From Bacilli bacterium (GTDB lineage: Bacteria; Bacillota_I; Bacilli_A; RFN20; CAG-826): a stretch of DNA of 37,917 nt. A model generated the notes under the pieces. It was given only the letters and a program-made list of their open reading frames with translations. It was not told the DNA's origin and did no database searches. Made by a program: the position numbers and the translations under genes. This document shows positions 19,403-35,071 of the stretch, one piece after another; position 1 is the stretch's first letter, and every line of letters begins with the position of its first letter. Where the stretch lies: the NCBI GenBank assembly GCA_024408295.1, contig JAKSVE010000009.1, positions 1-37,917 of the forward strand, written 5' to 3'.

Positions 19403-20038
19403 CTACTTATTTTCCTCAGCGTCTTTCTCTAATACACGTTTCCAGTCTTTCTTAACTTTTCCTGTCGTTTTGAGTTCATCGACCGTTCTTTCGATGCAAC
19501 AATACATCGTCCTTGTGCCTCTATGATCAGAGACATAACTAGCTGAGTAATCTTTTGATATACCGAACCCTTCCGCCGTTTCTGCGGCATCGATGTTCGC
19601 TCCTAAGAACAAGAATTCCCATCCACAGGCTTTCTTTGCTTCAATTAGGGCTTTAACCGATTTCTTGGTAAATTCTCTGCTGCTATTTTCATATCCATCT
19701 GTAGTGATGACCATGAGTGTTTTTGAAGGTTTTTTATCCTCCTCTAACAATGATTGCGATGCAGTGACTCTTGAGATTGTGAATCCAATTGCATCATATA
19801 AAGCGGTGCAGCCGTGTGGGATGTAATCCTCAGATGTGAGAGGTTTGACATCTTTGATATCTTTCCCGTCGTGAACCATTTTCAATTCAGTATTGAAGAG
19901 TGTTGTTGTCACTCTGACATTACCTTCTTCTCTCTGTTTTTTGAGGATGGAGTTATATCCTCCAATTGTGTCGTCCTCTAAGCCTGACATTGAGCCAGAC
20001 ATATCGAGAACAAAGACTAATTCGACCAACTTTTCCAT
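19403..20038 (-). CDS. TerY-like von Willebrand factor A domain protein
   Basis: 211 residues, essentially one vWA domain. The metal-ion-dependent adhesion site is intact: DMSGSMSG near residue 13, a Thr in the HGCTALYDAIG loop and ITTDGYENSS as the third loop. No signal peptide or membrane helix, so it is cytoplasmic. It resembles TerY/YegL-type vWA proteins that act as partners in stress, chemical-defence or phage-response clusters. It has its own promoter with a palindrome TCGC-N7-GCGA centred at about -42. The ribosome site is AGGAGGAATAAAAC. The partner and ligand are unknown. Confidence 0.88.
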   Translation of the reverse strand: MEKLVELVFVLDMSGSMSGLEDDTIGGYNSILKKQREEGNVRVTTTLFNTELKMVHDGKDIKDVKPLTSEDYIPHGCTALYDAIGFTISRVTASQSLLEEDKKPSKTLMVITTDGYENSSREFTKKSVKALIEAKKACGWEFLFLGANIDAAETAEGFGISKDYSASYVSDHRGTRTMYCCIERTVDELKTTGKVKKDWKRVLEKDAEENK

Positions 20039-20096
20039 GTTTTATTCCTCCTGTTGTCTATGCCCCATATTCTAGGTTGATGCCAATTCAAAATGG

Positions 20097-20111
20097 TCGC
20101 TTCCAATGCGA
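20097..20111. promoter_or_regulatory. island operator 1 (vWA gene)
   Basis: TCGCTTCCAATGCGA: the arms TCGC/GCGA match the TCGCA-N4-TGCGA sites further on but with a 5-nt spacer. The TAGAAT (-10, minus strand, 20069-20074) puts the centre at about -42, overlapping the -35 position. Confidence 0.55.
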
Positions 20112-20116
20112 CATTT

Positions 20117-20149
20117 AAAAAAGCCAACCCTAACAGTTGAGGATTGGCT
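20117..20149 (-). terminator. terminator of the AAA-DraG-XRE operon
   Basis: On the minus strand AGCCAATCC pairs with GGGTTGGCT and TTTTTT follows. The stop codon of the XRE gene lies inside the hairpin. Confidence 0.7.
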
Positions 20150-20672
20150 GATCGAAGTGTTCTAACGTTTGGTTTAGCAACAACAAATCATAGATTTTGT
20201 TCTGAATGAAGTATCTGACAATCAAGTCGCCTTTATTTGAACATGATAACGTGAACCCTGCTCTATGAAGCAAATCTAGGGCCCTATCGATGTCTAGTTC
20301 TAATGCGATACATAAGGAGATTGCTGTTTTCTTACTAGGTTTGTAATTGATGTCTGAGCGGATTTTTGAGAATAGTTTTCTATCTACATTGGCCTTTTTG
20401 TATATTTCTGAGTCCTTCACGCCTTTCTTGTCGATGCAAGAGAATAACATCTCAGCGAACGTCTTCTCCTTAACCTCAAAATCAGGCATGGTTGATAAAC
20501 ACATGTCATATAACACTCTTTCGCCTCTATGACCACGCTTTGTCCTCGAAGACGAAACAGAGTCCTCTCGAGAAGGTGCCGCTACCGAATACAATATCTC
20601 ATGTTCGGTGTAGTACTTCTCAACGAATTCAGTTACGTTTTTAAGTAATTCCAACGGTAATGCTTTTTCCAT
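20130..20672 (-). CDS. XRE-like helix-turn-helix protein
   Basis: 180 residues. The C-terminal half (about 90-165) reads like a Cro/C1-type domain: FSKIRSDINYKPSKKTAISL, then IALELDIDRALDLLHRAGFT. The N-terminal half has a Ser/Arg-rich linker (SREDSVSSSRTKRGHRG). I recall this protein type next to vWA, macro-domain and ADP-ribosyl-hydrolase genes in Clostridia, but the function is not known to me. Last gene of an operon with the DraG-like and AAA/M41 genes (22 nt gap). Confidence 0.65.
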   Translation of the reverse strand: MEKALPLELLKNVTEFVEKYYTEHEILYSVAAPSREDSVSSSRTKRGHRGERVLYDMCLSTMPDFEVKEKTFAEMLFSCIDKKGVKDSEIYKKANVDRKLFSKIRSDINYKPSKKTAISLCIALELDIDRALDLLHRAGFTLSCSNKGDLIVRYFIQNKIYDLLLLNQTLEHFDQPILNC

Positions 20673-20694
20673 ATTTTTATTGTCTTATATGCAA

Positions 20695-21522
20695 CTACTT
20701 TGTCAATTCAGTTTTAAAACTAAGAAGGACTGAATACATCTTCTTAGGCATCATTTTTATGACGGTATCTGCTATATTTGCAGGGATTTCCTTGTAAAAT
20801 GCCTCTGCAATTGAGCAAGAAATAGCGGCGATTGTGTCAGAGTCTCCACCTATGTAGATGGATTTTCTTAAACACTCTTCAAAGTTATTAGATGATAAGA
20901 AACAATAGATAGCCTGAGGCACGCTGTTCTGGCATGTCTCATCCATTCTGTAGTTTTTAACTAACTCTTTGTAATCATACTTATCAACGTTTGGATAATA
21001 GTCTTTTATGACTCTTTCTTTTATCTGTTCCTTTGTATATCCATTTCGAGCTAGGAAAATGCACATGGCAACAGCTTCAGCGCCTTTTATACCTTCTGGA
21101 TGATTGTGCGAAATCTCGGTTACTGCTCTAGATAGTGCCTTGACCTCTTCTTCATTTCTAGCGACCCAGCCAACAGGTGATATTCTCATAGCAGCACCAT
21201 TTCCATAAGACCCATAAGGCTTACGATCATTATCCTGGAGCCAAGAAAAGAAATATCCACCATATCCAGCATCAGGATAAGCTCTGAACCATTTGACCAT
21301 GGAATTGACGACGATCTTTTTCAAAGAATCATAATCTACGACATCTAAGTTTGTGTTTAGAAGCGATTCAGCGACCGCGGTCGTCATGAAAGAATCGTCT
21401 GTAAAGCTGTTCAGCCTTGTGAAAAGAGGGAATTCTTCTTTGCTCTTATAATAATTCTTTGCGTTTGATGAATTGAATTCGTACTGACTTCCGATGTAAT
21501 CGCCAATAAGTGCACCTAACAT
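20695..21522 (-). CDS. ADP-ribosylglycohydrolase (DraG family)
   Basis: 275 residues. The binuclear metal-site motifs are present: GALIGDYIGSQYEF at the N-terminus, SFTDDSFMTTAVAE (first Asp pair), SHNHPEGIKGAEAVA, and IGGDSDTIAAISCSIAEAFY (third metal motif). The family removes ADP-ribose from proteins, nucleic acids or small ligands, or degrades ADP-ribosylated metabolites. It is located 14 nt after the AAA/M41 gene and 22 nt before the XRE gene. No ADP-ribosyltransferase was seen in the window. The operon promoter carries the island operator, so it is likely induced with the other island genes. Confidence 0.9.
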   Translation of the reverse strand: MLGALIGDYIGSQYEFNSSNAKNYYKSKEEFPLFTRLNSFTDDSFMTTAVAESLLNTNLDVVDYDSLKKIVVNSMVKWFRAYPDAGYGGYFFSWLQDNDRKPYGSYGNGAAMRISPVGWVARNEEEVKALSRAVTEISHNHPEGIKGAEAVAMCIFLARNGYTKEQIKERVIKDYYPNVDKYDYKELVKNYRMDETCQNSVPQAIYCFLSSNNFEECLRKSIYIGGDSDTIAAISCSIAEAFYKEIPANIADTVIKMMPKKMYSVLLSFKTELTK

Positions 21523-21536
21523 GTATCTCTCTCCTA

Positions 21537-23033
21537 TTATTTAATTATCCTATGGTTTCCGTTCTCGTAGGAAGGTTCAATTAAGCCTTCGCTTTCTAAT
21601 CTTTTAACTATCCTGTTGGCCTTTGTGAAGCTGACGTTCATCTCTTCCTGGATGAATGATGTTGAAATGACATCTAAAGTAGGAAGATATGACTTAACGT
21701 TATCATAGATAACATCATTCTTTGAAGCTCCAACAATCTTGGATAATTGTTCTTTTGAAAGCCTCCTCTTTACCTTCAGCTGACTTACGACGGCATCGAA
21801 TAGATTCATATTCGCCATAATCAATCTTTCTGCCGTGTCCGATGCTTCTTTCAATATCGCACTCTTGTAGTTTTTCTGTTCAAGGGTTTCTTGAGGTTTC
21901 TGCTTCATGAACGTTGGCCCGTCTGCATCTTTAACGTAGAAAAGATCATATCCATCCACTCCACTTGATGCGACTTCCTCGGCCAATGCTATAGCGCGTG
22001 TTATATCGCTTCTAGAACCAGTTGAGCAATCTCCGTTCATCTTTATCTTTTCAGCAACGTTTCCTGCTAGTAAAACGGCGATTTCCTTCTTGATATTGCT
22101 TACTAGTCCACGAACTTCCTCCGATTCCTCTTCTTCCCCATCGTCGTACTCATTCACATGCGCTCCTTTTACATCACCATACTGTTCAACGGTGAGGGAG
22201 CCAATATTTCCAGTTAATAGATAACTGACAAGGAAGTGTCCTGCTTCATGTACACAGACGAATTCAGGAACTGCTGCTTTATTCTTTTTTATTTCCTGGA
22301 ATCGAACAACAGGGATTATCTTATCAAAATCTTCTAAAGTGATATCCGACTTGCCATTGCTTAAGCAATCAATGAGGGTTTCGTTTACCAATGTCTTGAT
22401 ATCAGCACCGGAGAATCCGCCGAGTCTAGAGGATAACTCAATTGTTGAAATGCCATCAAAAATCGCATTCTTTCTCAAATAATAATTGGTGATTTCGTAA
22501 CGTGATTTCGCATCAGGAATAGGCATGTTGATCTTCTTGTCCATCCTGCCGCTTCTAGTTAAGGCATAAGGTAATTCTTCTTTGAAATTCGTTGTAACGA
22601 TAACCAAAACTCCTTCATTGGAATTAATGCCATCTATCTCTGTTAAAAGTACCTTCAAAGTTTTTCTAGAAGAATCTGACATGAACGTTCTAGATGTGAC
22701 AAATTCATCAACTTCATCAATAAAAACAATACTTGGCGCGTTATTACGTGCTTTTGCAAAAATCATTCTTATCTCGTCTATCGTGTTATCTTCATCGCTC
22801 ATTCCTTTGCATTCTAATTCAAAAAACGGAACACCCGATTCATTCGCAATAGCCTTTGCTAAGCTTGTCTTTCCTGTCCCGCATGGTCCCGAGAGCACAA
22901 GTCCTTTTGATATATATGCGCCCATGGACTTGAATTTGTCATAGTTCTTGAGGACGTTGATTATCTTCCTCGCTTCTTCTTTTTGATCATCGTAACCAGC
23001 GATGTCTTCTAGTGTGATTCTATTTTCCATCAT
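21537..23033 (-). CDS. soluble FtsH-like AAA+/M41 protease with winged-helix tail
   Basis: 498 residues. An AAA+ domain (Walker A GPCGTGKT at 49-56, Walker B IVFIDEVDE at 102-110, a modified Arg-finger region ALTRSGRMDKK) leads into an M41 peptidase domain (HEAGH at 262-266, third zinc ligand Asp343 in GSRSDITRAIALAEE). A C-terminal ~55-residue winged-helix-like domain resembling FtsK gamma follows (ISTSFIQEEMNVSFTKANRI). There are no membrane helices, unlike true FtsH. The pore-loop Phe-Val-Gly expected after Walker A is absent (ECKGMSDEDNTID). A second M41 protein lies at 27798-29042. It probably degrades or remodels a specific partner and may bind DNA through its tail. Confidence 0.85.
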   Translation of the reverse strand: MMENRITLEDIAGYDDQKEEARKIINVLKNYDKFKSMGAYISKGLVLSGPCGTGKTSLAKAIANESGVPFFELECKGMSDEDNTIDEIRMIFAKARNNAPSIVFIDEVDEFVTSRTFMSDSSRKTLKVLLTEIDGINSNEGVLVIVTTNFKEELPYALTRSGRMDKKINMPIPDAKSRYEITNYYLRKNAIFDGISTIELSSRLGGFSGADIKTLVNETLIDCLSNGKSDITLEDFDKIIPVVRFQEIKKNKAAVPEFVCVHEAGHFLVSYLLTGNIGSLTVEQYGDVKGAHVNEYDDGEEEESEEVRGLVSNIKKEIAVLLAGNVAEKIKMNGDCSTGSRSDITRAIALAEEVASSGVDGYDLFYVKDADGPTFMKQKPQETLEQKNYKSAILKEASDTAERLIMANMNLFDAVVSQLKVKRRLSKEQLSKIVGASKNDVIYDNVKSYLPTLDVISTSFIQEEMNVSFTKANRIVKRLESEGLIEPSYENGNHRIIK

Positions 23034-23063
23034 AAGCTTCTCCCTCTTTCTGGGTATGTCGAT

Positions 23064-23124
23064 ATTCTATTTGAATTCAATGAATATATAAGGCTTTGGA
23101 CCCCTATTTGTCGCAGATGTGAGA
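23064..23124 (-). promoter_or_regulatory. AAA-DraG-XRE operon promoter with island operator 2
   Basis: Operator at 23111-23124 (TCGCAGATGTGAGA on plus). On the minus strand CTTATA, 17 nt, TAGAAT (23064-23069) follows. The operator centre is about -60.5 from the inferred start at 23057. Confidence 0.6.
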
Positions 23125-23142
23125 AAAGCTAGATCAAGCACG

Positions 23143-23281
23143 AAAAAACCACGGCGCACACCGTGGTTGATTCTCTAGATCTGCCCGTGAAATGAACATA
23201 AGGAGGATCGGGCGTGAGCTGAGACTTAGAGCGTAAGTTAGAAAGGAGGTTGTAGGATGCAGCCAACTCACTAGCTGCGAT
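23143..23281 (-). ncRNA. candidate small RNA with anti-Shine-Dalgarno loops
   Basis: Predicted transcript of about 139 nt from TTTACA-N16-TATAGT (23288-23315, minus) to a strong terminator, CCACGG/CCGTGG plus TTTTTT (23143-23166). No convincing reading frame. Two CCTCC segments (complements of 23243-23249 and 23201-23206) lie in unpaired regions: one between the GCAGC/GCTGC and CTTA/TAAG hairpins, one in the loop of a GCCCG/CGGGC hairpin. This is the layout of sRNAs that mask ribosome sites. An island operator is centred at -61. Confidence 0.6.
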
Positions 23282-23287
23282 GGCATT

Positions 23288-23349
23288 ACTATATTCCAAT
23301 TATTGTGTATGTAAATAGCTTCTGGGAGAGTTAGTCGCAAAGATGAGAA
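23288..23349 (-). promoter_or_regulatory. sRNA promoter with island operator 3
   Basis: Operator at 23335-23349 (TCGCA-AAAGA-TGAGA, 5-nt spacer). The promoter TTTACA-N16-TATAGT is on the minus strand; the centre is about -61 from the inferred start at 23281. Confidence 0.6.
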
Positions 23350-23386
23350 ACGCTTATCAAAATAGGGTCAAAACATTTGATTGAAT

Positions 23387-23457
23387 CGCACTTTTGCGAA
23401 TATATCGGTTTTTACTCAAAAAGGTTTTGATTTTCAGGAATCGTTTGTTATATACTC
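23387..23457 (+). promoter_or_regulatory. promoter of the 200-residue gene with island operator 4
   Basis: Perfect operator TCGCACTTTTGCGA at 23387-23400, then TTGATT (23428-23433) and TATACT (23452-23457). The centre is about -70.5, one helical turn further than the -61 sites. The leader of ~150 nt contains a CGGAT/ATCCG hairpin (around 23518-23534). Confidence 0.6.
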
Positions 23458-23615
23458 TTGCCCACATCGCTTCACCAACCCCCATCGATGGAGGCGTGAT
23501 CCCTGTACATAATGTCCGGATTTAGTTATCCGACACACCCGTTCTTTGACAACTCGCTTTATTCAAACCACCTTTTTAAATCTTCTAATTAAAAAGAAAA
23601 GAGGTATTTACAAAA

Positions 23616-24218
23616 ATGATCAATTTTGAATACATCCACTCCTTAATCAATGATAAGGAAAAACAGAATGAGCCATTAAGACACGGATCTGATAAAGGCG
23701 CAGCCTTCATAAGATGCGAGATCTTGAAGGCTCACTTCGTCTCAAAGGCTCTTGGGCTCACTCAAGAATCCAAAAAACTCTTAAAAGCCTATAACGACTA
23801 CTTCGCCCATTTGGGCTACACCGGAAACTGCATCGACGTCATCAAAAGGAAATTCCTTGGAGATGAATGCGAGCAGCTATTCAAACCTCTCCAGCAATAC
23901 GGCATCTTATCATTCAAAAAGATGCTTAAGCATGTCGAAACAGAGGAACTTTCAAACCTAGATAGCAGATTTGACATCCATGAATTGGCAAATCAAAACA
24001 ATCCAAGCATCTACACGGTTTCTTTCTTAAGAAGCGTGTTGGACATAACCATAGGAAAGAAGGATTTCGACAAATCCACAATAGGAGATTGTTACATCTC
24101 AATCGGCACAATAGACACAACCCCAACATATGATGGAAAACCTTTCTATCATCTAGTCACAAGACATGTTGACTCCACGAGCGAAATAGCATACAAAGTC
24201 TATAAAAAATATAGATAA
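23616..24218 (+). CDS. unrecognised 200-residue protein upstream of the large ncRNA
   Basis: 200 residues, soluble, no signal peptide or membrane helix, Lys-rich. Segments such as KRKFLGDECEQLFKPLQQYG and FYHLVTRHVDSTSEIAYKVY give no family I recognise. Ribosome site AGAGG about 11 nt before the ATG. It is the only larger gene on the plus strand in the island. It is followed after 10 nt by an island operator and the promoter of a ~670-nt structured RNA, with no terminator in between, so its message may run into that RNA. A protein partner of the RNA is one possibility, purely from position. Confidence 0.65.
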   Translation: MINFEYIHSLINDKEKQNEPLRHGSDKGAAFIRCEILKAHFVSKALGLTQESKKLLKAYNDYFAHLGYTGNCIDVIKRKFLGDECEQLFKPLQQYGILSFKKMLKHVETEELSNLDSRFDIHELANQNNPSIYTVSFLRSVLDITIGKKDFDKSTIGDCYISIGTIDTTPTYDGKPFYHLVTRHVDSTSEIAYKVYKKYR

Positions 24219-24228
24219 CGCATGAGTT

Positions 24229-24290
24229 TCGCATAAATGCGACAACGGGTAGCAGGCGGCTTGAAATAGAAGATTGAGCGAGCCTATAAT
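24229..24290 (+). promoter_or_regulatory. large ncRNA promoter with island operator 5
   Basis: Perfect operator TCGCATAAATGCGA at 24229-24242, then TTGAAA (24261-24266), 18 nt, TATAAT (24285-24290). The inferred start is about 24297 and the operator centre -61.5. Confidence 0.7.
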
Positions 24291-24296
24291 CTCATC

Positions 24297-24967
24297 ACTT
24301 CCAAAACCACACCACACGGTGATGGGTTGGAATCGCAAGGGGCTTAGATGCCCCAAGCGAATTGCTCTTTGAAAATTTATTTCCATGAAGTCACACCACA
24401 ACCAGGTGAAGACATCTTGTACGATGGCCTGGACCTATCCGTGGATGAAAAGCGCATTGGGATACTGATGCGTAATAAAGACCCTGAAGTAATGAAAGGG
24501 TTCACCTCGATTGGCTAATCGGGGCTGGGATAGTTGTGCATCGCGTTGACTAAGTATAAGTAGATATCGATAAGTTCGGGCGACAAGAAGCTCTGCAGCA
24601 ATGCATCTCGCCTGAGGATACGTGCCTGAGAAACACGTGATCCCGGCTCTCAAGGGAAGCCTTTGACTTGATGTCCAGCAATGGGCTATAAGAACGTAAG
24701 ATAGTGCGAGTAGCCGTATGTCAGATTAGCTATTTTTTGGAAGAAAAACATGATGATCTGAAGCTCGGTGAAAGTTGGGAGGTATTGGTCCTTCCTTAGG
24801 TTCGTCGAAAGACCATTCAAGAAGTTATGGGGTAGCTCCTCATGATTCAGACTTGGGTGCTAATGCTATGAATAATGCTTGTCAGTAAGTGGTTGTATGG
24901 CGAAGGTCAGTGTGCGATTTCGTGGAAGTAAATTTTAGAGTTTAAGGCGGATTTACCGCCTTTTTTC
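24297..24967 (+). ncRNA. large structured non-coding RNA (~670 nt)
   Basis: Bounded by a good promoter (TTGAAA/TATAAT) and a strong terminator (GGCGG-ATTTA-CCGCC-TTTTTT). No credible reading frame on either strand. Many local helices are visible: TTCCAA/TTGGAA (24299/24327); TCGC..GGGGC/GCCCC..GCGA (24333-24360); CCAGG/CCTGG around AAGA/TCTT; CCTCGATT/AATCGGGG (24505-24524); TGCA-GCAA-TGCA with a GNRA loop (24594-24605) inside GGGCGA/TCGCCT; GGATACGTG/CACGTGATCC (24616-24643); TGGTC/GACCA; ATGGGG/CCTCAT (24827-24843). Size, complexity and a rumen/gut-like host recall the ROOL/GOLLD class of giant RNAs, but I could not confirm a match. No adjacent tRNAs. Confidence 0.72.
24944..24967 (+). terminator. 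large ncRNA terminator
   Basis: AAGGCGG-ATTTA-CCGCCTT stem-loop followed by a run of six T. Confidence 0.8.
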
Positions 24968-24989
24968 TTTATTTTTGTAGGTAAAATGC

Positions 24990-25018
24990 AAAAGAAAAGA
25001 GCATCACATGATGCTCTT
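24990..25018 (-). terminator. HTH gene terminator
   Basis: AAGAGCATCA/TGATGCTCTT stem read on the minus strand, followed by TTTCTTTT. It contains the stop codon of the gene. Confidence 0.7.
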
Positions 25019-25210
25019 GACGCTCTGGCCAGTCTTAGCTTCATACAAAGCGACCAACATGACCATTGCCTGTCCAGACGGCTTAGCCTGGCAGTTTTGC
25101 CAACGATACACTGTACCGTCGTCGACACCCAAGTATCTTGCGATCTCCTGGATAGTCATTGTGCCAACGATGCCGTTGAACAACCTTTTGATGAATCTGT
25201 TAAAATCCAT
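25004..25210 (-). CDS. small helix-turn-helix protein (68 residues)
   Basis: 68 residues from the ATG at 25210 (GGAGGTAACTACA upstream). Most of the protein is one helix-turn-helix: MTIQEIARYLGVDDGTVYRW followed by QNCQAKPSGQAMVMLVALYE. It is a stand-alone DNA-binding domain of XRE/MerR-like type, without a sensor part. A TTGGTAACCAA palindrome between promoter and start suggests autoregulation. An island operator lies at -71.5. It sits next to the large ncRNA, transcribed toward it, with two separate terminators between. It may be an auxiliary regulator of the island. Confidence 0.8.
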   Translation of the reverse strand: MDFNRFIKRLFNGIVGTMTIQEIARYLGVDDGTVYRWQNCQAKPSGQAMVMLVALYEAKTGQSVKSIM

Positions 25211-25242
25211 TGTAGTTACCTCCTTAACATTCCCGTAAGTAC

Positions 25243-25253
25243 TTGGTAACCAA
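25243..25253. promoter_or_regulatory. palindrome in HTH gene leader (possible autoregulatory operator)
   Basis: TTGGTAACCAA, an exact 11-bp palindrome located just after the inferred transcription start (about 25257) of the HTH gene. Confidence 0.5.
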
Positions 25254-25263
25254 AAGGTGAGGT

Positions 25264-25335
25264 TATTATATACGCTGAAGAAGGAATTTAAAGGGGAATT
25301 TTTGGGATTTTCGAGAGGTTGTCGCAAACATGCGA
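25264..25335 (-). promoter_or_regulatory. HTH gene promoter with island operator 6
   Basis: Perfect operator TCGCAAACATGCGA at 25322-25335. On the minus strand TTTAAA, 16 nt, TATAAT (25264-25269). The operator centre is about -71.5. Confidence 0.65.
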
Positions 25336-25612
25336 AATGGCATAGTTCTAAGTAATCCGAAATATGGTCGGGAGATTTGATTTATAAGAAAAACATCCAC
25401 CGTTTCATAGTGCACTGTTGATAGCGAGGGTAAATTTGACTGAAGTGGCATGACTTCCCGATGAAATCATCATATCTCCATATTTTCACTCAATCATTGC
25501 ACTTTTCACTTAAATTGACATAGAGTTAGGAGATTTGCCTGTTGGCAGGAGATAAAAAGAGTGATTGTTACTGAATTACCTAATATAACTCCCCCATTAG
25601 AACGTCCCATCC
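25336..25612. other. intergenic stretch without a recognised gene
   Basis: AT-rich. A GTG with AGGAGA upstream at 25562 opens a 29-codon frame that runs antisense into the AAA_13 gene; I do not regard it as a gene. No terminator for the AAA_13 gene was identified here. Confidence 0.4.
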
Positions 25613-27715
25613 TTAAATCCTGTTCATCACTTCATCGCATTTCTGGATAAGGTGAGCAGGGATGGTATCGAATTGCCCGTCATCGAGAACCGAGGTCGTG
25701 TCGTTGTCGATATGGTATGTTTCGGTGATGTATTTCCACATGATCGCGCCTAACTCCAAGGAACCGTAATGTTTCTGAACGTAGAAGCGAATGATTTCTA
25801 GTTTCTCTAAGCTAGTTGTTGAAGGGTTGAAGTAATCAGCCTTGAGTTGCGTATCGGTTAATGAATTAATCCAAGGTTTGTAATCAAAGTCTCCAAAGCC
25901 CGGTTCTTCGTTGATCTTCTCTTGGATGGACATGTAGTCATCAATTAATTGATGATGATAATCCTTCGGAGACAAATCTCCATGCAAGAACGAGGAGACA
26001 AGCTCGTATTTATCCGAGAAGGACTCTCCGATGAGTTCCAAGTATCTTCTGTAGTGAAGGAGCCTGCAGATTTTAGGTCTAGAAGCATCCGAGAACTTCT
26101 CCTTCTCATATCTGGTTCTGAGCATGAATGAATTTCTCTCAACCAAAGTTTCTGTGACTCGCTCTCCGTCGTTTCTAAGATATTTAGCTTCAACGCAGTG
26201 ATAATAGACCATTTTAAGAAGGTCTTGCTTGATGAGGTCCACAACGATTGCAAAGTCATGAGTGACCATAAGGACTGTCTTGCCTCTAAGGTTATCTACA
26301 CCATAAGCGAACAACTGATGCAACAATGCATACTTCTTGTTGTTGTCAAAGCTTGAAATAGGGTCATCTAAAACGATGAGGTCGTGGCTAGAGCTCTTAG
26401 CATCAAGAGAGAACAACAAGAGAGATAAAGCGTTCTTCTCGCCATAGCTCAAGCAGTCAGCAATATTATCTGGCGCATCTTCTGTATTGGCTGGCTTGAG
26501 GATTGTTTTATATCCTGCATCGCTTTCCTCGACGACAATGCGGTAAGGCATACCGGCAATGTCCAAGAAATCGTTGATATATGCTGAGTTTCTATTGATG
26601 TTGTCTCTGGTGATATTGTTTAATTCCTGCAAATCAGCGCTTAAATTGGTTGTTGCATTGATTACGACATCCAAAGCGTCGTTGAAACGATCGACCTCAG
26701 CCAATGCATCCAGGCTTGCATCCATTAAGCTGAATAATCCCGATGTGTTCAATTTTGAATCCCTGAGATTATCCAATAAGGTGTTGTCTAAGACACTCTC
26801 AACGAGCTCTTTGTATTTCGTGTCTCTAAGTTTTGAAATCTTCACGGCTTCTTCAGCTAAAGCGCGATAGTCGCCCATGATGTGTTCAACCTGCCCTCTA
26901 TTTAAAATCTCGCCCGAACCAATCCAGGAGTTGATGAGGTTTCTTTCATCCTCCGGGAGATACTTCGTGAGCTTTTCGAAGTACTTCAAGGATTCCATTA
27001 ACTTCTTCATCGGAGAGGCTGTCATAGCAGAGTTGATCTCTTGCTGGAAGCTATCGATTTCTTCTGAGATTGCAGTCCCACAGTATGGGCAGTCTCCTTC
27101 ATCGTCCACATACTCTGCGCCTTCTTCAAACCAATCGCTCCACTTTGCTGCGGTATCAACCGATGTTAAGTGTTTCTTAAGCGGGTTGTCATTATGGATT
27201 GTGGCGATTGAATATCCTCTGGATATGCCAGATCCAACTTTTCCTTTCCCCTGAAAGAGTCCTGTCTTGGCGTGGATTTTTGCTTCTCTACCGAAATCTT
27301 GGATATCGCTGACGAAGTTAAGAAGGAACTCACTGTTATCAAGAATGGAGAGTACGGCATTCAACTTATTTCTGATCGCTTCTTCTCTTGCGGTATAGTC
27401 ATTGGTCTTGACGATGATTTCGAAGGTGTTCCTCAATGTATCGTTCTTCTGGAATAAGTTCTTCTCGACATAAGCATCATTAAAGATATAGACATCATTG
27501 ATTGGCTCGCTGAAAGTAACGCTTGGAGTAAGGTCGCTTCCGAATGGAGTCAAGTCCTCCATATCTTCGCCTGCTGCATAGGCCGCAATGGCTTTCGTGA
27601 TGCTGGTCTTACCAGTTCCGTTGTTTCCGTATTTGACGTTTAAGTAGTTCTTTCTTAAAGAAAGCTCAGCGTGTTTGACATTGCAAACATTGTCGATTGT
27701 TATAGTGATGCTCAT
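25613..27715 (-). CDS. AAA_13/RloC-like ATPase with zinc-hook CPYC
   Basis: 700 residues. SMC/RecF-type ATPase: Walker A GNNGTGKT (30-37), signature LSYGEKNAL (422-430), Walker B LIVLDDPISSFD (446-457), His switch MVTHD (483-487), flanking a coiled-coil region with a zinc-hook-like CPYC (209-212). After the ATPase core come R556-x3-E560 and H578, loosely like the Arg-Glu-His triad of PrrC/RloC anticodon nucleases, though the Glu-His spacing is shorter than I expect. The family is linked to phage defence (tRNA cleavage on DNA damage). Start: TATAAT ends 9 nt before the ATG, so the leader would be about 3 nt. No island operator upstream. Confidence 0.75.
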   Translation of the reverse strand: MSITITIDNVCNVKHAELSLRKNYLNVKYGNNGTGKTSITKAIAAYAAGEDMEDLTPFGSDLTPSVTFSEPINDVYIFNDAYVEKNLFQKNDTLRNTFEIIVKTNDYTAREEAIRNKLNAVLSILDNSEFLLNFVSDIQDFGREAKIHAKTGLFQGKGKVGSGISRGYSIATIHNDNPLKKHLTSVDTAAKWSDWFEEGAEYVDDEGDCPYCGTAISEEIDSFQQEINSAMTASPMKKLMESLKYFEKLTKYLPEDERNLINSWIGSGEILNRGQVEHIMGDYRALAEEAVKISKLRDTKYKELVESVLDNTLLDNLRDSKLNTSGLFSLMDASLDALAEVDRFNDALDVVINATTNLSADLQELNNITRDNINRNSAYINDFLDIAGMPYRIVVEESDAGYKTILKPANTEDAPDNIADCLSYGEKNALSLLLFSLDAKSSSHDLIVLDDPISSFDNNKKYALLHQLFAYGVDNLRGKTVLMVTHDFAIVVDLIKQDLLKMVYYHCVEAKYLRNDGERVTETLVERNSFMLRTRYEKEKFSDASRPKICRLLHYRRYLELIGESFSDKYELVSSFLHGDLSPKDYHHQLIDDYMSIQEKINEEPGFGDFDYKPWINSLTDTQLKADYFNPSTTSLEKLEIIRFYVQKHYGSLELGAIMWKYITETYHIDNDTTSVLDDGQFDTIPAHLIQKCDEVMNRI

Positions 27716-27774
27716 AGTCCTTATATTATATATAAATATTGTTCTCCTTTGAATAAAATACTGATGAAAACCAA

Positions 27775-27793
27775 CAAAAGGCCCCGAAGGGCC
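27775..27793 (-). terminator. second AAA/M41 gene terminator
   Basis: GGCCC and GGGCC around a TTCG tetraloop on the minus strand, followed by TTTTG. Confidence 0.75.
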
Positions 27794-27797
27794 ATTG

Positions 27798-29042
27798 TTA
27801 CTTGCTGAGGGCGAAGTCTTTGTAGGTGACCGTTCCCTTTTCGTACATGAGGTTAGCGAATCTCTCGATCTCTTTCTTGTGGGATTTGATCAATGATCTG
27901 GTCATTCTCTCGTACTTCTTGAGGAGTTTAGCCTCCTTGCGTTCATTCCTCCAACGCTTGAGGAAAGTGTCCTCTCTATCGTTGTTGTCCTGATAAGGTT
28001 CAACGTGGTTGACGATGCCTTGGATGCAGACTCTTTCGAGTAGTCTTCTACACATATCATGCGCTTTGTTGTAATCGGAATAGCTGCCGACACCGTGTTT
28101 GCCATAGAAGAGCTGTTCAGCGAGGTATCCTGCCATCGAGATCATGATGGACTGCTCGCGCTTCTCTACGCTATCGACATCTTCATCAGCTTCATGGATT
28201 TCTGTTTCTCCTCCGCTGCAAGTGAAGTATGCGCTATAGAAGTCCCAGTTCTTCTTGAATAGAAGACCGGCGATGGCGTGTCCTGCTTCGTGGATTGCGA
28301 CTCGCATATCCTTGAAGTCGATGGACTTATCGGTGTAGATGCCTCTGACCACACGTCTATAGGAGATTTCAACGTCTCTTGTCGTCATGTTCTTCTTGCA
28401 TCTCAGATATGCGTCGTTGCAGATTCCGCGAATATCCGCGCCAGAGGTTCTTGTGCAGACTTTGGCGACGTGAGAGGTATCGATATTATCCATTGGGACA
28501 TCAAGGTCTCTTAGGAACTTATCGAAGATCTCTTTTCTTGAGGCCTCGTTTGGTTCTGAGATATCGATTGTTCTATCGAATCTGCCAGGTCTTAATAAAG
28601 CTGGTTCGATTTCGCGGATGTTGTTCGTGGTAGCTAAGACTAGGATAGAACCTCTTGTGGTGAATCCGTCGAGTTCCTGCTGGAGGACTCTCTCGATGTT
28701 TTCGTTTCTAGCGATGAGCAAGTCGATTTCATCGATGACCACCACCGCGAATTTCTCCTGACGTGCTTTTGCGAATGCCTCGACAATCTCTCCGCACTTG
28801 TTTTCTGACTTGCCCTCGATTACGAAGATTGGGGCTTTGAAGCTTCCGGCGAACTCTCTTAAGAGGAGGGTCTTGCCGTTGCCTGGGCGTCCGTAGAAGA
28901 GGATGCCTGTTGGAAGCATGAGCTTGTCGTTGTTGAGGATCTCCTCATCCGTCAACCAGCTCTTGATGAGGTTGAGTTCACGTTTGACGTCCTCGTATCC
29001 GTAGACGTTGCTAAACATCTCCTTGGTTAAATCATTGTTCAT
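27798..29042 (-). CDS. second soluble FtsH-like AAA+/M41 protease
   Basis: 414 residues. AAA+ domain with Walker A GRPGNGKT (51-58), Walker B VVVIDEIDLL (100-109) and a normal Arg-finger region (LLRPGRFDRTID), then M41 peptidase: HEAGH (251-255) and third ligand Asp323 in GSYSDYNKAHDMC. No membrane helices and no recognisable winged-helix tail, unlike the relative at 21537-23033. The pore-loop Phe-Val-Gly of FtsH is missing here too (VIEGKSENKCGEI). Own promoter with two island operators. Likely a cytosolic regulatory protease whose substrate may be another island protein. Confidence 0.85.
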   Translation of the reverse strand: MNNDLTKEMFSNVYGYEDVKRELNLIKSWLTDEEILNNDKLMLPTGILFYGRPGNGKTLLLREFAGSFKAPIFVIEGKSENKCGEIVEAFAKARQEKFAVVVIDEIDLLIARNENIERVLQQELDGFTTRGSILVLATTNNIREIEPALLRPGRFDRTIDISEPNEASRKEIFDKFLRDLDVPMDNIDTSHVAKVCTRTSGADIRGICNDAYLRCKKNMTTRDVEISYRRVVRGIYTDKSIDFKDMRVAIHEAGHAIAGLLFKKNWDFYSAYFTCSGGETEIHEADEDVDSVEKREQSIMISMAGYLAEQLFYGKHGVGSYSDYNKAHDMCRRLLERVCIQGIVNHVEPYQDNNDREDTFLKRWRNERKEAKLLKKYERMTRSLIKSHKKEIERFANLMYEKGTVTYKDFALSK

Positions 29043-29075
29043 TGTAGTACTCCCTTCAAATTGTTTTGCTCAATA

Positions 29076-29165
29076 TATATACACCTCTATGCGCGGTATG
29101 TTTAGCGATCTGGATGTGGTATTCTCATGCTTGCGACAAAATAGTCAAAAGTCGCATTTTTGCAA
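29076..29165 (-). promoter_or_regulatory. second AAA/M41 promoter with tandem island operators 7a/7b
   Basis: Two sites: 29123-29136 (minus TCGCA-AGCA-TGAGA, centre about -60.5) and 29152-29165 (minus TTGCA-AAAA-TGCGA, centre about -89.5). Then ATCGCTAAACAT (29098-29109) supplies a TAAACA -35, 17 nt, TATATA. The 12-mer ATCGCTAAACAT recurs at the same distance at operator 8. Confidence 0.65.
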
Positions 29166-29176
29166 CGATTTTGCAA

Positions 29177-29200
29177 GAAAAAAGCCCATTTTAACGGGCT
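29177..29200 (-). terminator. terminator of the sigma-4 operon
   Basis: AGCCCGTTAAAATGGGCT on the minus strand (AGCCC/GGGCT), followed by TTTTTTC. Confidence 0.7.
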
Positions 29201-29219
29201 ATTTGATGATTCGCAATTC

Positions 29220-29738
29220 TTACTTCAGAAGCAAGAATATCATAAGGAATGTGCTGAAGAATCCGAACTGAGAGACGGCGTTGCAGATCTGCTCTATCCA
29301 GTTAGATTTGGCGTCACTTGAATCTAGCTTGGCGGCGAAGACAACCATCATAGCCATGCCCACGATTCCCACTACTAATCCTATTATCACTAGAGGGTTG
29401 AGTAATGAAGACCAGAACGCGGTCATCTCGTTTTGAACCACTGCGATGATAAATCCGATTATGAGGAGCAAGAAACCTAAAGGCATAGCCACTCTCATCT
29501 GAACGAACATCCACCACACATTCTTCTTTTTGATGACCACGATGAATTTCCAGATGGCTTTGATAAGTCCTCCGACGAAAGATATTGCGGCTCCTATATA
29601 CATAAGATAGCTATTTAGAACTAGGCCAAGCATGATGGAAGCAAGCGCAAAGAAAAGACATGGCAAGAGGTCCACCACCGCCATCGGGATGGTGAAGCCT
29701 ACTGGCACAATGTCTTTGCTCATCTTGTTGTTAGGCAT
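29220..29738 (-). CDS. multi-pass membrane protein of the sigma-4 operon
   Basis: 172 residues with about five membrane helices (around 17-34, 36-56, 77-98, 105-128 and 152-170). No charged catalytic motif and no family I recognise. Last of four genes in an operon with gaps of 34-38 nt. Possibly a membrane sensor or anti-sigma-like partner, which is speculation. Confidence 0.6.
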   Translation of the reverse strand: MPNNKMSKDIVPVGFTIPMAVVDLLPCLFFALASIMLGLVLNSYLMYIGAAISFVGGLIKAIWKFIVVIKKKNVWWMFVQMRVAMPLGFLLLIIGFIIAVVQNEMTAFWSSLLNPLVIIGLVVGIVGMAMMVVFAAKLDSSDAKSNWIEQICNAVSQFGFFSTFLMIFLLLK

Positions 29739-29773
29739 GCACTTATTATTGACTCATTTAGTCAACACCGCAA

Positions 29774-30103
29774 CTACTTGCCATAACAATGTCGTTTTGC
29801 TTTCTTTAGCCACTTCTGATGATCTTCGAAATCTTTGAGGTCTCTGAATCGATGGTCAGCTGGTGAATACTTCATTCCGATGTCTTTCTCGTAATAACGG
29901 AAATCCAAAGAGCCTTCTTCGATCAAATACTTGTAAATGCTGAGTGTTTGAAGCTTGTAGGACATATTGCCCTGCAAGAGAGTGTCCTCTTGCCGCTTCA
30001 AGTAGTTTCTGATGATTTTCCTTGATAGTTTCTTGATATCTTTTAGTGTGCTTCTGTGTCTTGATCCCTTCTGAATTGGGATCTTTTTGAATGATTTGGA
30101 CAT
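29774..30103 (-). CDS. unrecognised basic protein of the sigma-4 operon
   Basis: 109 residues, strongly basic and predominantly helical (SRHRSTLKDIKKLSRKIIRN). No family recognised. Follows the sigma region 4 gene after 34 nt. Its charge would suit nucleic-acid or RNA polymerase contact. I looked for a sigma region 2 signature, since a split sigma would need one, and did not find it. Confidence 0.55.
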   Translation of the reverse strand: MSKSFKKIPIQKGSRHRSTLKDIKKLSRKIIRNYLKRQEDTLLQGNMSYKLQTLSIYKYLIEEGSLDFRYYEKDIGMKYSPADHRFRDLKDFEDHQKWLKKAKRHCYGK

Positions 30104-30136
30104 AATTCCCCTTCTACGCCAGGGGAATCACTTAGA

Positions 30137-30355
30137 TTACTTGAGTCCTTCGATCTCTTTTAATCTACGGATAATTTTTGTTTCAACCTGGCGTATCCTT
30201 TCACGCGTTACGCCGAAGATTGGGGCAAGTTCTGCCAAGGTCTTTGGGTCCTCTCCTCTGAGACCGAAACGAAGCTCGAAAAGTTCTCTCTGCTTTTCGG
30301 TGAATTCGTCTTTGTGTTTCTTATAGCTTTCGATGATGTTTTCTTTATTCTCCAT
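30137..30355 (-). CDS. stand-alone sigma-70 region 4 protein
   Basis: 72 residues, matching only region 4 of primary sigma factors: KQRELFELRFGL then TLAELAPIFGVTRERIRQVE with the -35-recognition helix, and TKIIRRLKEIEGLK. Regions 1-3 are absent. Proteins of this size can act as co-sigma or phage-type transcription factors (compare SigO/RsoA of Bacillus). Second gene of the operon, with AGGAGCACATC as ribosome site. Several island promoters have poor -35 hexamers, so it could help at those promoters; this is inference. Confidence 0.85.
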   Translation of the reverse strand: MENKENIIESYKKHKDEFTEKQRELFELRFGLRGEDPKTLAELAPIFGVTRERIRQVETKIIRRLKEIEGLK

Positions 30356-30392
30356 GATGTGCTCCTTTGAGTAAGCGAATTAACGATAATGA

Positions 30393-31094
30393 TTAGTCGG
30401 ATGTCTCAGAATGGTCATCTTCATAAAATAGATTTCCGATCGATGAATTGAGCGGATCGAATCCTGCTTCTGATGCCGGCGCGGTAAGGATGTAGGTCTT
30501 GCCGGATTCGTCTCTGCACATGACGTGGTAGATAGTATATTCCGGGAAACCTCCCCAACCATGTCTCTCGCATAAGTCGAATCTGACAAATGGGGCGTAA
30601 TTGAATGCTTCGATAACACGCTCGTTTTCATTCTCGTCGAGGAATGATTCCAACGGACCGCGTAGGACGGGTTCAGCCTTAAAGGAAACTTGGTAATTAG
30701 GGCTGTATTCTCTATGAATCTGTTCATTGCGAATAAGAATGTCTCTAGAGACGTAATAGTCCTGCTCTCCCACTGAAAGTGCGATGGAGCGAGAAATGGC
30801 TAGAACCTCTGCATGACTATCCCTGATTTTGTCGTATAGAACAGCCGCGAAGTATTGCGTGATTTTGCCGAGGTCTGTCTTGTTGCCTGCGAATTGGAGG
30901 AAGTCCTCTTTGATGGTGAAATCCCCGCTTTCTAAGACCTTATCAACCCATTGATAGATTGGTAAGTCCTCGCCTGAGGAACCGCGAAAGAGAGTCAAGG
31001 CAAAACGTGTGAGTTCGTCGTCTTTCTCGTAATGGCAATCGAATGCGGCATTGATGACGTCGGTGATGTGTTTGTTTAATAAGAATTCGTACAT
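30393..31094 (-). CDS. unrecognised 233-residue protein heading the sigma-4 operon
   Basis: 233 residues, acidic, soluble. Segments include ITDVINAAFDCHYEKDDELTR and GGFPEYTIYHVMCRDESGKTY. No family recognised and no signal peptide. GGGGGA precedes the start. The operon promoter carries island operator 8. Confidence 0.6.
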   Translation of the reverse strand: MYEFLLNKHITDVINAAFDCHYEKDDELTRFALTLFRGSSGEDLPIYQWVDKVLESGDFTIKEDFLQFAGNKTDLGKITQYFAAVLYDKIRDSHAEVLAISRSIALSVGEQDYYVSRDILIRNEQIHREYSPNYQVSFKAEPVLRGPLESFLDENENERVIEAFNYAPFVRFDLCERHGWGGFPEYTIYHVMCRDESGKTYILTAPASEAGFDPLNSSIGNLFYEDDHSETSD

Positions 31095-31126
31095 GAAAAA
31101 AATCCCCCTGAAAAAACATCACCATT

Positions 31127-31187
31127 AATATATGCGCTTGACATATGGATGTTTAGCGATTGGCGCCCATAAATCGCAAGGCTGCGA
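31127..31187 (-). promoter_or_regulatory. sigma-4 operon promoter with island operator 8
   Basis: Perfect operator TCGCAAGGCTGCGA at 31174-31187. On the minus strand ATCGCTAAACAT (31149-31160) gives a TAAACA -35, 17 nt, TATATT (31127-31132). The centre is about -60.5. Layout is identical to operator 7a. Confidence 0.65.
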
Positions 31188-33440: not shown

Positions 33441-33473
33441 AAAAGCCTCTCGTTTAAAACGGGAGGCATTTTT
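33441..33473 (+). terminator. channel gene terminator, possibly bidirectional with hipA
   Basis: GCCTCTCGTTT pairs with AAACGGGAGGC and is followed by ATTTTTATT. The reverse strand ends in TTTTAAC, so weak bidirectional action is possible. Confidence 0.7.
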
Positions 33474-34698
33474 ATTTCCCAAAAGCAGGTGTCATATATT
33501 CAATTGCTTTTTCGCTAGCGCCACATCTTCTAGCAATCGTTTTCCACGATGATGAGATAATAGAAGACGTCTCATCAACAATGTCTCGTGCAGTCTTTTC
33601 ATCAATTCCGAATGCAAACGACACCGCAATAGCAGAATCCAAATTCAATGAATTGTCCACCCCATCTATCGTCATAGATAAATACATACCATCCGGATTT
33701 GGATTAACATCAAATAAAGGCGATAAAACCCATCCGTTTTTCATCAATAAGAAGCCATGGTTTCTCAAATGGTCATCAGTATTTTTCACTAGAATCGAGA
33801 ACACAATTCTTTTGAATAATTCAACCAAATCGGCTTCGACATTGCAGCCGTTAGATCTGATAAAGTCTGCCAAATCAAGATAGGAACACTCCGATGATTC
33901 GCCATCCGTTTTGTCTAACAAGCACATCGATGATGCGAAATGAATTCTCTTTTTGCCATTGCGATCGAATCTTTTCACCAAGAAGGTGCTTCCTCTTTCA
34001 GAAAACTTCAGAATCTTTGATGGCATTGTGTTTAGCCCACATAATCTAGCTAATTCATAGGTGACGTATTCAAACAAACCGCTATCCCACTCGTCGTGCT
34101 TCGAAGGAAATTTTGCAATCCATAAAGAGCCATCCAGATCAACTACGTTCGCCTTTGGTCTAGCACCGCCTAAAGACGATCCTGGCGTCAATAAAAGAGA
34201 AATCCATTTTTCATCTAGGAAATTTTCATCTTTCTCATATTCGGAAGCCGCATATTCGATATCTCTTAGTTTTTCTATTGGGGGAGCAGACATATTTTTT
34301 TCGTCCGAGATGAATTTTCCTCCCTTTTCTAGAGAAAATCTGATGGCTCCGAGTCGCGAGTAATCATCAACGCCAAGAAGATAGTCGCTTTCTCTCAATG
34401 GGGTTTTATCCCCAGCAGAGAGTCTTCTTCTGTTCATCAACATCCTGCCCCAGCGGTCAGGTGCTGAATCCATGAAAACGCCGAATTGCTTCTTCTCACC
34501 ATCAACATATTGAGGTCCAGAAAAGTATTCCAAATTTGGATCTATACGGGGGATTCTGTTGTTTCTTAACCATGCATTATCATATATAAAAGAACACACT
34601 TCTGTGCCTCTAATCCCTTGAATACGTAATTCTCCCATTAAAGATGGTTCATTGGAGAAAAACTCTTCATATACATAAACGATTTTGTTTTCTGCCAT
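33472..34698 (-). CDS. hipA: HipA-family serine/threonine kinase toxin
   Basis: 408 residues, full length for the family. An N-terminal HipA_N region (FSNEPSLMGELRIQGIRG) precedes the kinase-like domain: a Gly-rich SSLGGARPKA loop, Lys in LWIAKFPS, FLVKRFDR, catalytic NTDDHLRNHGFLL, and metal-binding LSPLFDVNP. HipA enzymes phosphorylate glutamyl-tRNA synthetase or other targets and cause growth arrest until neutralised by HipB. The start follows the stop of hipB directly (TAAATG). No truncation is visible. Confidence 0.92.
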   Translation of the reverse strand: MAENKIVYVYEEFFSNEPSLMGELRIQGIRGTEVCSFIYDNAWLRNNRIPRIDPNLEYFSGPQYVDGEKKQFGVFMDSAPDRWGRMLMNRRRLSAGDKTPLRESDYLLGVDDYSRLGAIRFSLEKGGKFISDEKNMSAPPIEKLRDIEYAASEYEKDENFLDEKWISLLLTPGSSLGGARPKANVVDLDGSLWIAKFPSKHDEWDSGLFEYVTYELARLCGLNTMPSKILKFSERGSTFLVKRFDRNGKKRIHFASSMCLLDKTDGESSECSYLDLADFIRSNGCNVEADLVELFKRIVFSILVKNTDDHLRNHGFLLMKNGWVLSPLFDVNPNPDGMYLSMTIDGVDNSLNLDSAIAVSFAFGIDEKTARDIVDETSSIISSSWKTIARRCGASEKAIEYMTPAFGK

Positions 34699-35004
34699 TT
34701 ATTTAACCCTCTTTGGAATCGCTATATCTAAATCCTGGAGCTTTCTGCCCAAAACGTCATCTTTTGCAACCAATAGCAAATCCTTATCCATCCCGTTTAG
34801 AGCGTGAAGCACCATCGCATAATATCCAATTGCAACATTAGGCGAACCTTTTTCAATCGCCCAAACAGTTGCCCTGCTGACACCTGCTCTTTCTGCAGCC
34901 AAGCTAGCTGAAATGCGTCTACGCAATCTAGCCATCTTGATTTGTTCGCCCAGTGTCTTCAATATCTCGCCAGTCTTTGGCATCACCATCATCTTACGTT
35001 GCAT
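34699..35004 (-). CDS. hipB: HipB-family XRE antitoxin
   Basis: 101 residues from the ATG at 35004. A Cro/C1 helix-turn-helix (LGEQIKMARLRRRISASLAA, then ERAGVSRATVWAIEKG) is followed by a short tail that would contact HipA. The start is preferred because GAGG is 7 nt upstream and the promoter lies just before it; a longer frame would include the promoter. Binds its own operator and represses hipBA. Confidence 0.9.
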   Translation of the reverse strand: MQRKMMVMPKTGEILKTLGEQIKMARLRRRISASLAAERAGVSRATVWAIEKGSPNVAIGYYAMVLHALNGMDKDLLLVAKDDVLGRKLQDLDIAIPKRVK

Positions 35005-35014
35005 ACTTATACCT

Positions 35015-35071
35015 CTAACATTCGATACTATAAACATTTTTGCGCATTTTGTCAAAAGTATCGAACATTAG
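35015..35071 (-). promoter_or_regulatory. hipBA promoter and operator
   Basis: On the minus strand TTGACA, 17 nt, TATAGT (35027-35055). A long inverted repeat, CTAACATTCGATACT (35015-35029) and AGTATCGAACATTAG (35057-35071), frames the promoter, with 13 of 15 positions matching. Confidence 0.85.

Follow-up and report, generated by a model that had tools for sequence, protein, structure and literature searches.

ROOL is a large RNA of no assigned function that in vitro forms cages, hollow octamers, and in one Ligilactobacillus strain it is as abundant as 16S rRNA (PMC12286853). Published ROOL genes belong to phages and prophages and are commonly close to tRNA islands (PMC12286853). One phage copy examined here is accompanied by tRNAs and possesses a TTGACA/TATAAT promoter. 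Here we describe a ROOL gene in a chromosomal island of a gut-dwelling Bacilli bacterium, carried on a contig of 37,917 nucleotides (JAKSVE010000009.1, analysed in its entirety and hereafter called the window). The gene lies near the candidate defence gene PDC-S06, behind a palindrome, TCGCA-N4-TGCGA, that recurs at activator-like positions in front of at least eight transcription units. Its identity as ROOL follows from the match to Rfam RF03087, which scored 201 bits against a gathering threshold of 99.1 and covered model positions 1-574 of 574, full length as in the phage and prophage forms. No ROOL regulon is reported in the literature searched, which misses most subscription journals; the genes described here would be the first reported case of joint activation with ROOL.

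The FNR site is TTGAT-N4-ATCAA. FNR acts from class I sites at -61.5 or -71.5 and from class II sites at -41.5 (PMC6343905). The sites of the island resemble those of CRP/FNR class I and class II regulons in their palindrome, whose 5-bp arms are separated by 4 bp, in centring near -61, -71 and -42 and in the scatter of their targets, but the half-site is TCGCA rather than TTGAT or TGTGA and no matching family member was found. A second likeness is to ClgR, an XRE-type activator of Clp protease genes known from Actinobacteria, which shares with the putative activator a GCG-armed palindrome and protease-gene targets; the ClgR arms are closer, however, at CGC-N5-GCG (PMC2905415) against CGC-N6-GCG here and N7 in one variant, so that the island sites do not conform to its operator. 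The candidate defence protein matches the PADLOC candidate family PDC-S06 strongly and over nearly its whole length (profile PDLC04889, residues 4-698 of 700, E 1.4e-147), but unlike the known form its gene apparently shares an operon with that of a soluble AAA/M41 protein (AAA2), under the shared site.

Distribution of the palindrome in the window and genome

A scan of the whole window found four perfect copies of TCGCA-N4-TGCGA (sites 4, 5, 6 and 8 in Table 1) and four with one mismatch (sites 2, 3, 7a and 7b), and no other with up to one mismatch. All eight are intergenic. When the intergenic DNA of the island region (3,068 bases) was shuffled 2,000 times, 0.001 perfect sites were expected against the four observed, and 0.059 sites with up to one mismatch against the eight, with a maximum of two in any shuffle. 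Spacers of 2, 3, 5, 6 and 7 nt gave 2, 0, 2, 0 and 1 matches in the whole window; the excess is confined to the N4 spacer and to the island part of the window. The site at the vWA promoter (site 1) has a 5-nt spacer and one change in addition. These counts agree with the original prediction of one palindrome shared by at least eight units and found nowhere else in the window, and its coordinates stand except that 23387 should read 23386.

The window is one entire contig (C40) of an incomplete metagenome assembly, G000, of 1.02 Mb and 64% completeness. Genome-wide, six perfect sites are present, four of them in the window, and 26 sites with up to one mismatch, compared with 15 for a reversed control pattern. 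Since eight of the 26 are in the window, the remaining genome is near background. Equal frequency of the motif throughout the genome, which would have counted against the prediction, was not observed.

Position of the sites relative to promoters

Transcription starts were taken to lie 12 bp past the first base of the -10 hexamer, and all centres given here depend on starts predicted in this way. Recomputed centres are at -60.5 for the AAA1 operon, the small RNA and the sigma-4 operon, -61.5 for ROOL, -70.5 for the 200-aa and helix-turn-helix (HTH) genes and -42.0 for vWA; that of AAA2 is at -60.5, or at -64.5 if a better hexamer is used. All fall near the -61.5, -71.5 or -41.5 of CRP/FNR-type activators. 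As a shift control, -10-like hexamers were scored at all offsets on both strands for three separate sets of sites. A hexamer placing the centre at -60.5 (±1) was present at 4 of 8 window sites (mean over offsets 0.76), 5 of 18 sites elsewhere in G000 (0.97) and 5 of 10 sites in the sister species G044 (0.64), and this position ranked top or joint top in all three sets. A good -35 hexamer was absent, by eye, at several site-bearing promoters. The fixed positions at -60.5, -70.5 and -42 point to an activator that would work from class I and class II sites. The activator-like, CRP/FNR-like placement claimed earlier is upheld, as are most of the individual centres, although that of the small RNA recomputes to -60.5 rather than -61 and that of the HTH gene to -70.5 rather than -71.5.

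Table 1. Palindromic sites, genes and RNAs of the island in window coordinates, with site centres relative to predicted transcription starts; L043 and L133 are loci of the sister genome G044.
Feature	Position	Strand	Remarks
Site 1, TCGCA-N5-AGCGA, vWA gene	20097..20111	-	centre -42, class II-like; variant and position recur at G044 vWA gene
Site 2, TCTCACATCTGCGA, AAA1 operon	23111..23124	-	centre -60.5; TCTCA variant retained in G044
Site 3, small RNA	23335..23348	-	centre -60.5; G044 counterpart L043 3605
Site 4, perfect, 200-aa gene	23386..23399	+	centre -70.5
Site 5, perfect, ROOL RNA	24229..24242	+	centre -61.5; G044 counterpart L043 3569
Site 6, perfect, HTH gene	25322..25335	-	centre -70.5; G044 counterpart L043 1820 at -60.5
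Site 7a, TCGCAAGCATGAGA, AAA2 operon	29123..29136	-	centre -60.5; TGAGA variant also in G044
Site 7b, TTGCAAAAATGCGA, second site upstream of AAA2 operon	29152..29165	-	centre -89.5
Site 8, perfect, sigma-4 operon	31174..31187	-	centre -60.5; G044 counterpart L133 2825
vWA-domain protein, 211 aa	19403..20038	-	PHROG 7371
180-aa protein, C-terminal XRE/Cro-type HTH	20130..20672	-	domain found elsewhere as end of macro-domain proteins
DraG-type ADP-ribosylglycohydrolase	20695..21522	-	Pfam PF03747, E 2.9e-40
AAA1, FtsH-like AAA and M41 protease without membrane part, C-terminal FtsK-gamma-type winged helix	21537..23033	-	
Small RNA, ~140 nt, CCUCC-containing stretches and terminator	23138..23281	-	start predicted
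200-aa protein	23616..24218	+	no family beyond weak PHROG match
ROOL RNA	24378..24927	+	Rfam RF03087, 201 bits, E 4.5e-44, full length
Small HTH protein, 68 aa	25004..25210	-	G044 relative is HTH_3 by Pfam
AAA_13 protein with CxxC zinc-hook-like motif, candidate defence PDC-S06	25613..27715	-	PADLOC E 1.4e-147
AAA2, second soluble AAA/M41 protein	27798..29042	-	57% identical relative in G044
109-aa protein of sigma-4 operon	29774..30103	-	G044 relative likewise behind a site
Stand-alone sigma-70 region 4 protein, ~72 aa	30140..30358	-	Pfam PF04545, E 5.5e-13
233-aa protein, leads sigma-4 operon	30393..31094	-	

Sites outside the island

One of the two perfect sites of G000 outside the window, C36:40436, precedes a gene with the promoter TTGATA-16-TATAAT that was identified as transfer-messenger RNA (tmRNA) by ARAGORN, with the tag DNNSVKPWMLGANRAAFARA, and by Rfam RF00023. 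The offset of the site from the mature 5' end is -89 in G000 and G044 alike; none of the other tmRNA genes of the genus that were checked has a site with up to one mismatch. The remaining perfect site, C4:19706, falls within a gene. At C21:6140 a site with one mismatch is followed by an operon whose products are a helicase of the SNF2 type, a MoxR-type ATPase and another vWA-like protein, the last two named by eye. Further one-mismatch sites stand at -60.5 ahead of uvrA and rpsF-ssb and at -43.5 ahead of a pduL-like gene. The rpsF site is absent from G044 and the uvrA site from the sister genomes G043 and G041; as the relatives checked lack these two, they were kept out of the regulon, together with the pduL site. 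The prediction that the sites link otherwise unrelated genes into one regulon is supported, and the proposed regulon extends beyond the island to tmRNA and to the SNF2-MoxR-vWA operon.

Conservation in a sister species

G044 (JAKSVD01), a Bacilli bacterium from horse faeces, belongs to the same genus and is likewise an incomplete metagenome assembly (70% complete). Its island is at the matching place, adjoining aconitase: locus L043 carries PDC-S06, small HTH genes, ROOL, AAA1, the XRE protein and vWA, and L133 carries AAA2 and the 109-aa gene beside a TrkA-like channel. The functional island that had been proposed is supported; in the window it is bounded by ordinary core genes, those of aconitase and a TrkA-like channel. 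Between the two species, identity is 93-95% for flanking and core proteins together (94-95% for the flanks), compared with 39-57% for island proteins and 62% for the SNF2 protein. The occupation of one chromosomal place (window 19403-31094; L043 and L133) by such divergent genes has the look of a hypervariable or replaced allele.

Sites were present at 9 of 9 orthologous promoters compared, those of vWA, AAA1, the small RNA, ROOL, HTH, AAA2, the 109-aa operon, SNF2 and tmRNA. Across them the arms are identical at 85 of 90 positions (94%), a value partly selected because seven of the nine G044 sites were located with the pattern itself and only those of vWA and tmRNA by position, and the 45 bp downstream at 153 of 405 (38%), where shuffling gives ~27%. 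Unusual variants are retained promoter by promoter: N5 at vWA (centred at -42.0 in both species), TCTCA at AAA1 and TGAGA at AAA2. The regulatory sites have thus persisted even though the downstream proteins have drifted to roughly half identity.

Proposed regulon

On the evidence of the sequence, TCGCA-N4-TGCGA is very likely the site of one dimeric activator, with a regulon that comprises ROOL, tmRNA, a small RNA, AAA/M41 proteins and a candidate defence gene. The activator would bind mostly 60.5 bp (±1) upstream of the start and at some promoters at -70.5, or at -42 with the 5-nt spacer, and would recruit RNA polymerase, presumably through the alpha C-terminal domain in the manner of class I and class II activators. 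Jointly induced units of the island would be vWA, AAA/M41-DraG-XRE, the small RNA, ROOL, the small HTH gene, AAA2 with PDC-S06 (probably one operon) and the sigma-4 operon, and beyond the island tmRNA and the SNF2-MoxR-vWA operon would also respond. The sequence itself gives the sites, their excess, their positions and their conservation; from these we infer binding, activation, start sites, operons and an inducing signal. Some findings weigh against such a regulon: the G044 tmRNA site carries two mismatches, the uvrA, rpsF-ssb and pduL sites may be chance matches, the -10 hexamers are poor at some promoters (AAA2, and AAA1 of G044), and the pattern search contributes to the arm identity.

The gene content points most readily to a response to stress or phage that would act on translation and protein quality. 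More specifically, and only tentatively, the response might be induced by blocked translation or by phage attack, with ROOL, tmRNA, a small RNA with anti-Shine-Dalgarno-like stretches, the AAA/M41 proteins and the candidate defence ATPase made together and ROOL acting on ribosomes or translation products as part of a defence programme encoded by the host; we think this rather doubtful. The regulon would give ROOL functional neighbours beyond phage tRNA islands, among them tmRNA for the rescue of ribosomes, two AAA/M41 proteins for proteolysis, a small RNA and genes of candidate defence, and would make its function testable through the signal and the regulator.

Identity of the regulator

Bacterial intergenic DNA is rich in short palindromes, and the 18 sites of G000 outside the window are near the control count, but it is barely credible that chance, or a dispersed repeat without function, placed eight sites where 0.06 were expected in island intergenic DNA, at fixed spacing and with conservation promoter by promoter. 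Operators of a LexA-like or other stress repressor are very improbable as well: the regulon is stress-like in content and palindromes are also typical of repressors, but the centres keep a constant distance and phase on the upstream side of the -35 region, a placement from which no block of polymerase by a repressor would be anticipated, and several of the promoters have no good -35 hexamer. For an activator, the position of the sites and the resemblance of the 5-4-5 palindrome to that of FNR suggest a CRP/FNR-family regulator encoded in the unassembled part of both genomes, and at their levels of completeness the chance of one gene missing from both is ~0.1. We consider this unlikely. No PF13545 or PF00027 match was found in G000 (64% complete), and the sole CRP/FNR protein of G044 has TGTGAT-N4-ATCACA, probably its own operator, at the start of its gene, conserved in G043 (TGTGATTTGAATCACA in G044 and TGTGATTCAAATCACG in G043; L148 near 1429 and L150 near 1426). 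Its recognition helix R-E-x-x-S-R is also found in G043, a genome without TCGCA sites, and both G043 and G041 have CRP/FNR-type proteins and no TCGCA palindromes of the form searched. The TGTGA-type site and the absence of TCGCA palindromes from these orthologue-bearing sister genomes make the G044 protein, whose gene adjoins NuoF/hydrogenase-type genes (called by eye), an unlikely regulator, and it was rejected; a CRP/FNR-family gene with a matching site, as the original prediction proposed to look for, was not found in the two assemblies searched.

It is quite possible, if short of probable, that the regulator of the proposed regulon is encoded in the island, as the small XRE/Cro-like HTH protein or the 180-aa XRE-domain protein. 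Both proteins are present in both islands, the small HTH gene itself carries a site, and the sites occur with the island and are absent from sister species without it. GCG-armed palindromes are known from activators of the XRE type such as ClgR (WNNWMGCYNNNRGCGWWS; PMC2905415), and the model of the XRE domain appears to resemble ClgR, DdrO and C proteins, but with weak Foldseek E-values (0.07 at best). Against the small HTH proteins, their recognition helices vary between and within genomes whereas the sites are constant; the XRE recognition helix of the 180-aa protein is identical in G000 and G044, but its domain recurs widely at the end of macro-domain enzymes whose genes neighbour vWA genes, at loci without the palindrome.

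The macro-domain (ADP-ribose) proteins that end in this XRE domain were seen at L184, L185 and L186; in Peptoclostridium the next gene encodes a vWA protein, in Selenomonas a vWA gene is nearby, and a human gut phage has a relative. A WYL regulator was considered on account of the WYL-type genes that adjoin AAA2 relatives in other genomes, and this candidate was rejected as none was found in the G000 or G044 assemblies.

Occurrence in other genomes and at other ROOL loci

Among 279 genomes of the order scanned with TCGCANNNNTGCGACWA, at least two matches were found in G000, G044 and G014 only, and the regulon is known so far from the first two species. The G014 matches are two identical perfect palindromes (L127 2810 and 4119) in one repeated stretch beside ATPase genes; one of the two palindromes overlaps the region in which an ATPase gene starts. 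Relatives of AAA1 in the genomes searched comprise the G044 record and four distant ones, with none in the viral contigs searched. Viral loci holding relatives of vWA, AAA2, HTH or ROOL have no palindromes, blastn of ROOL against phage and plasmid records gave no matches, and repeats near distant AAA2 relatives yielded nothing useful.

G044 has a second ROOL locus, L044, with no such site upstream. PDC-S06 is near ROOL in all three island-type loci (the window, L043 and L044). A boxA-like sequence, TGCTCTTTGAAAA, stands ahead of ROOL in the window (24360-24377), with similar sequences at L043, L044 and a phage ROOL (L183); we remark only that its bases overlap bases able to pair with the ROOL 3' end. 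In three other genomes, G011, G021 and G048, ROOL is divergent to genes of a ~325-aa family (L045 10392-11378, L046 10580-11554 and L047 near 9400), one pair of which is 48% identical. With a ribbon-helix-helix-like start and a weak WCX match, this family is a possible ROOL regulator.

Other features of the island

The small RNA has a strong terminator and a fold energy modestly better than that of shuffles (z -1.5); its partial G044 counterpart gave z -3.0. The CCUCC stretches of both (window 23138-23281, minus strand; L043 3660-3812, plus strand) are complementary to Shine-Dalgarno sequences, and TTACCTCCTT in the G044 RNA matches AAGGAGGTAA ahead of the first HTH gene. The predicted structure of the 233-aa protein was unusable, with a predicted local distance difference test score of 35. 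In addition to the stand-alone sigma region 4 protein of the window, G044 encodes, close to its second ROOL, a protein with sigma regions 2-3 that lacks region 4 (L044 3487-4164). A HipA-like gene and a small HTH partner, identified by eye, adjoin the island (window 33472-35055).

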